Source: Clostridia bacterium (lineage in GTDB: Bacteria; Bacillota; Clostridia; Christensenellales; RUG350). Taken from it: a stretch of DNA of 32,471 bases. The stretch lies in contig JAGBSX010000009.1 in the NCBI GenBank assembly GCA_017631635.1, positions 1 to 32,471 of the forward strand, in the 5' to 3' direction. The notes under the pieces are model-generated. The model ran no database searches. It was not told where the DNA came from and worked only from the letters and a program-made list of their open reading frames with translations. Of the stretch, positions 1,850-5,206 are shown piece by piece (position 1 is the stretch's first letter; every line of letters begins with the position of its first letter). The position numbers and the translations under genes were made by a program.

Positions 1850-1865
1850 AAAACTATAAAATCAA

Positions 1866-2015
1866 TATCGGTAGGCAAGGCTACTTCAGGGATACGGGTT
1901 ACTGCCGTTTGGTAGAGGAGACTCCACCACACAGGTCAACAGGCTACATCGAATACAAGGTGTAACCTAACGTAATTTCAAGCCCTGTTGAGTTAAAGCT
2001 CACACGCTAGGTTGC
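1866..2015 (+). ncRNA. M-box (ykoK) Mg2+ riboswitch
   Basis: The conserved M-box blocks occur in the right order: an AGGCAAGGCTAC segment near 1873, GGTTACTGCC near 1897, GGTCAACAGG near 1934, and AGTTAAAGCTC near 1991. The gene directly downstream is mgtE, the classic target. In this family Mg2+ binding stabilises a fold that lets a terminator form, so high Mg2+ turns the gene off. A terminator hairpin at 2036-2065 supplies the expression platform. Identification rests on remembered consensus, not on a covariance-model search. Confidence 0.9.
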
Positions 2016-2035
2016 ATTTTTCCATAAAATTTTTT

Positions 2036-2071
2036 ACGGTTCTTTGTGATTTGGCGAAGAACCGTTTTATT
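2036..2071 (+). terminator. Riboswitch-controlled terminator before mgtE
   Basis: ACGGTTCTT (2036-2044) pairs with AAGAACCGT (2057-2065) and is followed by a T-rich run. It lies between the M-box and the mgtE ribosome binding site, as expected for a transcription-attenuation platform. Confidence 0.85.
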
Positions 2072-2091
2072 TGCCTACGAAGGAGGTGCTT

Positions 2092-3789
2092 ATGCTCGAA
2101 AAAATCAAACAACTCCTATCTTCTGAGAGGGAGGGTGATTTGGCTACGTTGCTCGAGGAGACTTCGCTAGAAGATATCGTATCCGTATTCGAACAACTCA
2201 GCGACGAAGAATTCTTGGCGGCTTTTGACCTGCTAGAGGCAGAAAAGGGCGCTGACATATTTAAGGCTACCACACAGCATAGACAAGAACTCGTACTCAA
2301 TAGGTTTAGTGACGTGGAGATTAGCGACGTCGCCGAAGAGATACTAGACGACGACATCATAGAGGTAATGGACGAGATAGATACAGATATCGTACATCAC
2401 CTACTACTCAAAGCAGACCCCGAGATACGTAATGAAAAGATAGTAGAGATACTAGAGTATATCGAAGAGAAAAAGTTTAGTTCGCTCAAACCTCTACTGG
2501 CAGAAATGCAACCTATCGATATCGCCGACGTCATCAACGAACTAGACGACGACAAAGTGCCAGTAGTATTTAGACTGCTCCCCAAGGATTTGGCTGCAGA
2601 GACCTTCGTAGAGATGGACACCGAAAATCAGCGAATACTCATACAGTCCTTTAGTGACAAAGAGTTGCGTCTAATCATAGCAGACCTATACCTAGACGAC
2701 ACCGTAGACCTCATAGAGGAGATGCCTGCCAACGTGGTGAGCCGTATACTATCACTCACCTCCAAGGATGATAGAAATACTATCAACGAAATGCTACGTT
2801 ATCCCAAGGATACGGCTGGCTCTATAATGACTCCAGAGTGCATATCTCTACGAGCCAATATGACTGTGGCAGAGTGCTTTGACAAGATAAGACGTCAGGC
2901 TATCGACAAGGAGACCGTATACACCTGCTACGTCACCAACAACCAAAAGAAACTGCTAGGTACTGTCACCGTCAAGGACCTACTACTACACGATTATGCT
3001 GAGAAAGTAGGCGACTTCATGGAGGATAACTACATCTATGCAGATACCCTGATGGACAAAGAAGAAGTGGCTCAACTACTCTCCAAGTACAATCTACTCG
3101 CCATACCTGTAGTTGACCAAGAGAACTTGCTCGTAGGTATCGTCACCATAGACGACGCATTGGACGTCCTCACCGAAGAGGCTACTGAGGATATTAGCAA
3201 GATGGCAGCTATTACCTCATACGACAAGCCATACCTCAAGACCAACATATTTAGGATATTTTGGTCGCGTATACCTTGGCTAATGCTACTACTACTGAGC
3301 GCGACCTTCACAGGTATCATCATCAACAACTACGAACTCACACTCCAAGGTGCACTCATAGCCTGCGTACCTATGCTAATGGGTACGGGTGGTAATTCGG
3401 GTAGCCAGTCCTCCGTCACCGTAATACGTGGTATGTCGCTAGGCGAAGTAGAACAGGCAGATTTTGGTAGAGTATTGCTCAAAGAGACGCTAGTAGGTCT
3501 CATATCTGCACTCACTCTAGCGCTAGTTTGTTTTGCCAAACTACACCTGATAGACAACTTGATATTCAATTCGGGTTATCCTATCAGTGAGATAGTCATA
3601 GTGTCGGTATCTCTAGCACTCACCGTACTATTAGCCAAGATAATAGGTGCGACTCTCCCCTTCCTCGCAAGGCTCTTGCACCTAGACCCAGCAGTAGTGG
3701 CTAGTCCATTCATCACTACGATAATAGACGTCATCACCCTACTACTCCTATGTGCTACGGCAGGCGTAATCCTACCTATGTTTATCTAA
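2092..3789 (+). CDS. mgtE: Magnesium transporter MgtE
   Basis: This is a Mg2+ channel/transporter of the inner membrane. The start is ATG 2092, seven to eight bases after AAGGAGG, rather than the in-frame TTG at 2071. The product is 565 aa against roughly 450 for typical MgtE. The order is an acidic helical N-domain, two CBS domains (about residues 240-370; GTVTVKDLL and GIVTIDDALDVL are typical), then a five-helix membrane domain from about 385. The pore motif GTGGNSGSQSS is intact. The extra length lies at the N-terminus, where residues 1-120 look like a second copy of the MgtE N-domain seen again at about 125-235. In known MgtE the N and CBS domains close the pore when cytosolic Mg2+ is high. 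Expression is probably also set by the M-box upstream. Confidence 0.95.
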   Translation: MLEKIKQLLSSEREGDLATLLEETSLEDIVSVFEQLSDEEFLAAFDLLEAEKGADIFKATTQHRQELVLNRFSDVEISDVAEEILDDDIIEVMDEIDTDIVHHLLLKADPEIRNEKIVEILEYIEEKKFSSLKPLLAEMQPIDIADVINELDDDKVPVVFRLLPKDLAAETFVEMDTENQRILIQSFSDKELRLIIADLYLDDTVDLIEEMPANVVSRILSLTSKDDRNTINEMLRYPKDTAGSIMTPECISLRANMTVAECFDKIRRQAIDKETVYTCYVTNNQKKLLGTVTVKDLLLHDYAEKVGDFMEDNYIYADTLMDKEEVAQLLSKYNLLAIPVVDQENLLVGIVTIDDALDVLTEEATEDISKMAAITSYDKPYLKTNIFRIFWSRIPWLMLLLLSATFTGIIINNYELTLQGALIACVPMLMGTGGNSGSQSSVTVIRGMSLGEVEQADFGRVLLKETLVGLISALTLALVCFAKLHLIDNLIFNSGYPISEIVIVSVSLALTVLLAKIIGATLPFLARLLHLDPAVVASPFITTIIDVITLLLLCATAGVILPMFI

Positions 3790-4176: not shown

Positions 4177-4941
4177 TTAATATAGTTTATTCGGAAAAGA
4201 CTCAAGAACATCAATGACTTCGGATAAAACAGCCGTATATTCATTGAGCATTTGCTTATATGCTGCAGAGGCACGATTATATTCATTATCCTGTGCTGTA
4301 GTTGAATCTTGTTTGTTAATGGTTCGTCTTATCTGTTCAGAAAATACTTTGTACCATTCGGCAGCTTCTTGCATACCTTTTTCATTACTATTTTTAAAAT
4401 GATTATACGCATTGTTTGATACCGTATATGCTTTTTCGTAGTATGTAACAGCAATAGACCAAGAGGTGTTTCTGTATGGTGCTCCTTGATTCATATATTC
4501 TACGGCTTTTGTGAGATAATTGTCATTAGATTTATAATAATCATTCCACTCAGTATATTCCGAAAGCTTTAATGCTGTAGAAACAAAGGTTGTTGCATTT
4601 GTAAATGTATCATCTAAAGGTAACAAATTAAGTATTTTTTGATATATCTTTAATTCATCTATTGCTTTAGTTTCAATCAAAGCATAATTCGTATTAGTCC
4701 AATTATCTGAATCAAGATAATAATTCAATTTTTTTAAGACACAATCCAATATTTTGTCTTTACCCTCTTCAAGCGTTTTTTCGTTCATAGATTCACAAAT
4801 CTCTAATGCATTTTCCAGCTCGTTTGCTTCTATGTGTGTGATTGCTTTTTCAATGGAAGTGCTATCCGCACCATTTGAACCACAACCAACAAAACAGCAC
4901 GCAATAAATACAAATAACAATAAAGCCAATAATTTTTTCAT
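4177..4941 (-). CDS. Putative lipoprotein, helical, function unknown
   Basis: The product is 254 aa. The start at 4941 is chosen because AGGAGG lies eight bases upstream and MKKLLALLLFVFIACC is a clear type II signal peptide ending in the lipobox FVGC (Cys20). The mature part is predicted to be almost wholly helical, with repeated Tyr/Ala-rich helices at about residues 35-60 and 130-230 that recall TPR-like folds. I recognise no family. Its DNA differs from the neighbours: it has no CTAG, and Leu and Ile codons are TTA/ATT-like and AT-rich. This suggests acquisition from elsewhere or a different selection history. It is the only gene between a minus-strand promoter at 5178-5206 and the terminator at 4145-4172. 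A terminator-like hairpin stands just before its ribosome binding site, so attenuation is likely. Confidence 0.8.
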   Translation of the reverse strand: MKKLLALLLFVFIACCFVGCGSNGADSTSIEKAITHIEANELENALEICESMNEKTLEEGKDKILDCVLKKLNYYLDSDNWTNTNYALIETKAIDELKIYQKILNLLPLDDTFTNATTFVSTALKLSEYTEWNDYYKSNDNYLTKAVEYMNQGAPYRNTSWSIAVTYYEKAYTVSNNAYNHFKNSNEKGMQEAAEWYKVFSEQIRRTINKQDSTTAQDNEYNRASAAYKQMLNEYTAVLSEVIDVLESFPNKLY

Positions 4942-4969
4942 AAGATAACCTCCTAAAATTTGACAAAAT

Positions 4970-4999
4970 AAAAAAGTGCGCCTACCGAAGTAAACGCAC
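4970..4999 (-). terminator. UUCG-loop terminator/attenuator before lipoprotein
   Basis: On the minus strand GTGCGTTTAC, loop TTCG, then GTAGGCGCAC form ten pairs (two G-T), followed by TTTTTT. It sits 29 bases before the lipoprotein start codon. There is no promoter between it and the gene, so the gene should need read-through. Confidence 0.8.
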
Positions 5000-5171
5000 A
5001 AAAACACAGACTCCGATAGTCGCTAAACAAAACATAAATGAGCGAAGTATTACCTTACACAATCACTTAGTAGAATCTGCATTTTATCAAATTCAAAAGT
5101 AATTGTGCAAAATGATATAAAGCGCCCTAAAAATAAAGACACTTCGCTCCATACATTTAGTTTTGTTTAGC
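4970..5171 (-). ncRNA. Candidate structured leader or small RNA
   Basis: A minus-strand promoter predicts a transcript starting near 5171. Its first 31 bases (5171-5141) are complementary to 5048-5022, with small bulges, giving a long closing stem. Inside, 5107-5097 pairs with 5068-5058 (CACAATTACTT with AAGTGATTGTG; one G-T pair). After the fold-back comes a perfect 10-bp stem with a TTCG loop (4999-4976) and a run of six T residues (4975-4970). The RNA would be about 200 nt. The lipoprotein ribosome binding site follows within 20 bases, so this could be a riboswitch-like attenuator. A free small RNA with a 6S-like fold is the main alternative. No known RNA family is recognised. Confidence 0.6.
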
Positions 5172-5177
5172 ATAACT

Positions 5178-5206
5178 ATTATAACACTTATAAATAATTT
5201 TTTCAA
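5178..5206 (-). promoter_or_regulatory. Promoter of the structured leader
   Basis: On the minus strand TTGAAA (5206-5201) and a perfect TATAAT (5183-5178) are 17 bp apart. The predicted start falls on the first base of the fold-back arm at about 5171. Confidence 0.75.

Follow-up and report, generated by a model that had tools for sequence, protein, structure and literature searches.

What does a long fold-back do between a promoter and a lipoprotein gene? The question arose from a locus on the minus strand of the window (the whole 32,471-nucleotide stretch of DNA analyzed here), where a sequence-only reading had noticed a structured RNA in the layout of an attenuator or riboswitch. From comparison with its relatives, the element is probably a cis-acting transcription-attenuation leader, a member of a large family in one Clostridia class whose switching would be controlled by a pseudoknot.

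Structure of the element in the window

The features of the element are listed in Table 1. As had been proposed, the consensus-like promoter leads to a predicted transcript start around 5171-5173, at the first bases of the 5′ arm (GCTAAAC) of a fold-back that spans 5171 to 5022 (−) and holds inner stems. The whole element folded at −76.1 kcal/mol, compared to −40.4 ± 3.8 kcal/mol for dinucleotide shuffles (n = 200; z = −9.4), and 0/200 shuffles equaled it. The fold-back is followed by a terminator hairpin with a UUCG loop, GTGCGTTTA-CTTCGG-TAGGCGCAC (4999-4976), the RBS and, 29 nt after the end of the terminator, the ATG of the lipoprotein gene, in agreement with the layout first suggested. 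The terminator had been described as a perfect 10-bp stem; the 10 pairs, the loop and the six T residues are present, but the count includes G-U and the stem is not perfect Watson-Crick.

Table 1. Features of the leader element and of the gene behind it; positions are those of the window.
Feature	Positions	Strand	Sequence or remark	Basis
Sigma-70 promoter	5178..5206	(−)	TTGAAA-17-TATAAT, TG ahead of −10	11/12 consensus matches
Promoter boxes	5206-5201; 5183-5178	(−)	TTGAAA; 17-nt spacer; TATAAT	
P1, 5′ strand	5154..5171	(−)	GCTAAACAAAACTAAATG; consensus in family GCCAAACNAAYTNAATA	100% paired over the eight basal pairs; compensatory changes
P2 hairpin	5119..5145	(−)	Missing from shorter subfamily	Fold and comparison of relatives
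P3 long hairpin	5051..5117	(−)	Arm sequences variable, each pairing its own partner in relatives	Arm-swap z −51
P3 apical hairpin	5073..5094	(−)	GAATTTG-ATAAAATG-CAGATTC	94.9% paired, 53 relatives
Strand 1	5072..5085	(−)	AAAATGCAGATTCT; apical loop and 3′ arm; partner of strand 2 in pseudoknot	99.5% paired, compensatory changes
P1, 3′ strand	5022..5040	(−)	Ends in GTTTAGC	Fold and covariation
Strand 2	5000..5019	(−)	CTATCGGAGTCTGTGTTTTT	Conserved pairings with strand 1 and strand 4
Intrinsic terminator hairpin	4976..4999	(−)	GTGCGTTTACTTCGGTAGGCGCAC; strand 4 = 4990-4982	Sequence and covariation
Terminator U-run	4970..4975	(−)	Six T	Sequence
Shine-Dalgarno	4949..4954	(−)	AGGAGG	Sequence
Putative regulated gene	4177..4941	(−)	Lipoprotein, 254 aa	ATG at 4941

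Searching Rfam 15 at the window element with E-values up to 5 gave only chance-level matches and none at gathering, in line with the earlier remark that no known leader motif is visible. No match was obtained with the 6S model at the window element, with the T-box model at the window element or tested relatives, or with any Rfam 15 family in relatives from the long family and the shorter subfamily described below. The lipoprotein itself was without match in Pfam, NCBIfam or PADLOC. Elsewhere in the window, an M-box magnesium riboswitch (RF00380, 80.7 bits, Rfam 15) was located at 1860-2019 (+), directly 5′ of a 572-aa ORF (2071-3789) resembling the MgtE magnesium transporter by eye.

Relatives of the element and covariation of the stems

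In a BLAST search of 61 genomes from the order, 14 gave matches, the layout recurring in full ahead of different genes. One degenerate tail pattern yielded at least 117 loci in a one-genome-per-species collection; the genomes among the matches listed were of Clostridia type, MAGs with few exceptions, and many derived from gut samples. In 120 copies it was possible to place P1 together with a promoter-like sequence lying 5-7 nt ahead of it; a comparable promoter preceded almost all, and the P1 span measured 134-177 nt in nearly all. A shorter subfamily, without P2, was also found. Using a covariance model, the element was detected in 26/151 genomes of the order and in 36/148 genomes sampled from the class, where single genomes carried as many as 12 copies, and its distribution was patchy across both; in the phylum sample of 199 genomes only the window's own genome carried it, and none outside the class did. 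A phage or plasmid origin was rejected, as the element was present in 1/50,697 phage records, four IMG/VR contigs and 0 plasmids.

The element belongs to a large family of probable RNA switches in gut Clostridia that is apparently undescribed. No paper describing the family was found in the literature searched; it may figure as an unnamed candidate in the supplements of large screens (e.g., PMC8040213), which lay outside the search. Rfam 15 has no entry for this structured-RNA family, whose members number in the hundreds across gut Clostridia, a single genome carrying as many as a dozen.

The main covariation tests were carried out on an alignment of 53 relatives, using shuffled and slid pairings as controls. 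P1, apical hairpin and terminator, taken together, were 97.0% paired and contained 111 double-change cells vs 35 in shuffles, and slid versions of these pairings all collapsed. The arm-swap test gave z −40 for P1, z −51 for P3 and z −12 for the antiterminator, the own partner being far better than those of other copies. These comparisons show strong covariation in the P1, P3 and terminator stems, and the stem conservation in relatives that had been set as a check on the first reading was confirmed.

Competing pairings and the attenuation model

Strand 2 takes part in two conserved pairings. In the pseudoknot, the strand AAAAUGCARAUUCC from the apical loop is paired to GGAGUYUGYGUUUU, immediately 5′ of the terminator (99.5% paired; 7 double-change cells vs 1.1 in controls, G-C replacing A-U included). 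In the antiterminator, CWAUCGGAG pairs with CUUCGGUWG of the terminator (96.6% paired; 26 double-change cells vs 10.4). On a tree built solely from sequence upstream of strand 2, independent double changes numbered at least nine at one antiterminator pair and seven at one pseudoknot pair. In the window, the 5′ part of strand 2 (5019-5011) pairs with strand 4 and the 3′ part (5014-5000) with strand 1. Because GGAG is common to both, pseudoknot and antiterminator are mutually exclusive; the antiterminator excludes the terminator as well, taking its loop and 3′ arm. At the level of sequence comparison, the family therefore displays two mutually exclusive conserved pairings, a conserved layout and covarying stems. 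Competing folds that are directly visible in covariation are rare for expression platforms.

The strands involved differ from those of the switch originally suggested, in which CGAAGU of the 5′ arm would pair with ACUUCG in either the 3′ arm or the terminator. ACTTCG does occur at both places in the window, but the coincidence is not conserved: a 5′-arm CGAAGT and a 3′-arm ACTTCG were found together in just 2/112 copies, the window element and its closest relative, and this pairing was rejected as a conserved switch. A leader peptide from the apical-loop ATG (AAAAATGCAAATTCC) was likewise rejected, given that it has no SD, that the frame is unconserved past the stem and that some copies read AAAAACG (by eye).

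In the shorter subfamily, pseudoknot and antiterminator scored better than all 2000 shuffles, a result of supporting weight only since some terminators were misplaced. A good score was also obtained there for a control pairing between the 5′ end and strand 2, as the stretch scored takes in the P1 3′ arm and some terminators were misplaced. In part of the long family, with the terminator GTGCGTGGCTTCGGTCACGCAC, one or two of the antiterminator pairs are broken. In three loci of the shorter subfamily (L202, L205, and L218), the terminator 3′ arm repeats the P1 5′ strand, and the antiterminator may extend into P1 at these loci, opening it.

G-U far exceeded A-C on the minus strand (119:0 in the pseudoknot, 121:10 in the antiterminator), so that pairing is selected in the RNA of this strand. 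This count bears on the proposal that the fold-back matters as DNA, as in an attC-like recombination site or a MITE, which is otherwise suggested by near-identical copies in unrelated flanks (arms >72% identical, 123 pairs) and by the patchy distribution. In most copies the element is oriented from promoter to gene with the RBS after the terminator, and in the loci read the copies stand single ahead of genes, with no cassette arrays; together with the G-U excess, this makes a DNA-level element quite improbable. An attC-like DNA fold was rejected on the G-U and A-C counts, the integron attC test being negative on this ground and on the single placement of the copies. The element could be mobile and an RNA switch simultaneously.

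For the window copy, the antiterminator was the predicted fold at 3′ ends 185-194 of 202 and the terminator thereafter. The energies were −71.9 kcal/mol for the antiterminator state, −76.1 kcal/mol for the terminator state and about −79.4 kcal/mol for pseudoknot plus terminator, the last being a rough sum as the folding program cannot model the pseudoknot. While the terminator is being transcribed, the antiterminator was the predicted intermediate fold in 110/110 elements, lying 1.1 ± 1.7 kcal/mol from the final fold. These predicted energies and intermediates match the expectation for a kinetically balanced attenuator, and from the modeled folds we infer attenuation itself.

In the proposed mechanism, P1, P2, and P3 would fold once the promoter is left behind, and strand 2 (5019-5000) would then have two rival partners, strand 1 and strand 4. 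In the OFF state, strand 2 would invade the P3 apical hairpin at strand 1, resulting in a pseudoknot of 14-15 bp in which strand 2 is consumed and the terminator closes. In the ON state, the apical hairpin would stay intact and strand 2 would capture strand 4 (CUUCGGUAG) on its exit from RNA polymerase; the resulting 9-bp antiterminator would prevent the terminator from forming and let transcription proceed to the RBS and to the gene, which lies 29 nt farther along. An effector, whether a small molecule, an ion, a protein or an RNA acting in trans, may stabilize the P3 apical hairpin or the pseudoknot. Switching on and off during transcription, the default state and the existence of an effector are all presumed in this model.

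In kind, the element is a probable transcription attenuator: an intrinsic terminator lies between promoter and RBS, and a conserved, covarying antiterminator excludes it. The family itself has no entry in Rfam 15. Riboswitch and T-box attenuators share with it a leader RNA between promoter and RBS, an exclusive terminator and antiterminator, and a common strand that decides between them. In contrast to these, the element matches no Rfam 15 model (T-box and known riboswitches included), its antiterminator takes the terminator loop and 3′ arm, and it stands under a long loop-to-tail pseudoknot with diverse cargo genes. In pseudoknot riboswitches such as preQ1 and SAM-II, the tail immediately preceding the expression platform is paired to the loop of a hairpin farther upstream, and the element is alike in this respect; by a comparison from general knowledge, it differs in its 14-15 bp pseudoknot formed by apical-stem invasion, in its length of ~200 nt and in the high variability of its arms.

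A narrower form of the attenuator explanation takes P1-P3 as the aptamer of a small-molecule riboswitch proper. The succession of aptamer and expression platform with strand exchange would suit it, as would the numerous copies per genome ahead of varied genes, a situation also seen for second-messenger riboswitches. However, the P1-P3 arms are highly variable, few unpaired bases outside the switching strands are invariant and the downstream genes suggest no single metabolite, which leaves this form possible but rather doubtful.

Downstream genes and portability

The gene start was found at a median of 23.5 nt after the U-run, and for most of 116 copies the distance to RBS and start codon fell within a narrow range. 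The attenuation model had first been framed around control of a lipoprotein gene specifically; this did not extend to the family, in which downstream proteins included BspA-type LRR proteins, lipoproteins, EcoRI-like methyltransferases, AbrB/MazE-type regulators, TIR, SLOG, and GIY-YIG proteins. Using simple heuristics, a lipobox was enriched in downstream proteins (26% vs 5% in other ORFs of the same loci, p 5e-9), as was a hydrophobic N-terminus (51% vs 18%, p 4e-10). A small Cys-rich family (IDVTGIKLTPGNEGKDCLGNG...CCCDECDY) had 6/6 of its genes in genome G414 and 4/4 in G453 at ~18-35 nt behind an element (L187, L188, L192, L195-L197, and L228-L237), and may be connected with the RNA. One possible regulon would thereby join this small family with DNA methyltransferases, adhesins, lipoproteins and secreted proteins that are otherwise unrelated.

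The alternative offered by the sequence-only reading was a free small RNA, 6S-like or acting in trans, with a constitutive terminator and a merely adjacent gene. It is suggested by the ~200-nt fold-back reaching from promoter to terminator, as in 6S RNA, and by several copies that are in tandem or without a gene behind; gene-less copies are a minority, and a free role is possible for some of them. Yet neither the 6S covariance model nor any other in Rfam matched, and the three stems are followed by RBS and gene. The narrow distance from U-run to RBS and start in most copies, an antiterminator whose conservation would be pointless behind a constitutive terminator, and the 10/10 genes of one small-protein family directly behind the element in two genomes argue further against a free RNA, which we consider unlikely.

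Promoter, structured RNA, terminator, RBS and ORF follow each other in the same order in type III toxin-antitoxin loci, where the RNA is the antitoxin. The element differs in having no short tandem pseudoknot repeats and in being an attenuator by its pairings; the downstream genes are mutually unrelated, and for 84 downstream proteins (Pfam and PADLOC) no type III toxin was among the matches listed. A toxin-antitoxin function is therefore very improbable.

EcoRI-type adenine methyltransferase genes recurred behind the element at L020, L124, L129, L008, and L227, in different genomes and a faecal phage (L227, record MT835503.1, whose ORF resembles those enzymes by eye against L020). Copies without a gene behind were L194, L200, L214, L215, L216, and L219; several gene-less copies are then followed by a GTTGCTACACAC-like sequence, resembling the reverse complement of the shorter-subfamily P1 3′ end and linker. 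Tandem pairs, the first element ending without a gene, were seen at L202, L007, and L036.

Pairs of copies with near-identical variable arms, among them L057/L058 and L001/L002 (94-95% identical over the element), had flanks with an identity of 0.28-0.37 upstream (outside the promoter boxes) and 0.29-0.30 downstream. Near-identical elements in unrelated flanks indicate that the module was copied or shuffled independently of the gene. We tentatively suggest, as a rather speculative extension, that the new RNA switch class is also portable, a unit of ~225 bp bounded roughly by its own transcript start and end that spreads in gut Clostridia, independently of genes, to positions ahead of accessory genes and genes for surface proteins, bringing them under one shared signal. 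Homology boundaries coinciding with transcript ends would fit RNA-mediated copying. The family offers a ready-made case for studying the spread of a regulatory RNA module from gene to gene.

The proteins downstream of L057 and L058 differ in their N-termini and have the C-terminal motif PPPSKRH in common, for which module exchange is possible. A skipping-rope RNA (RF02924) was located near an element, at L204 1434-1523 (−).
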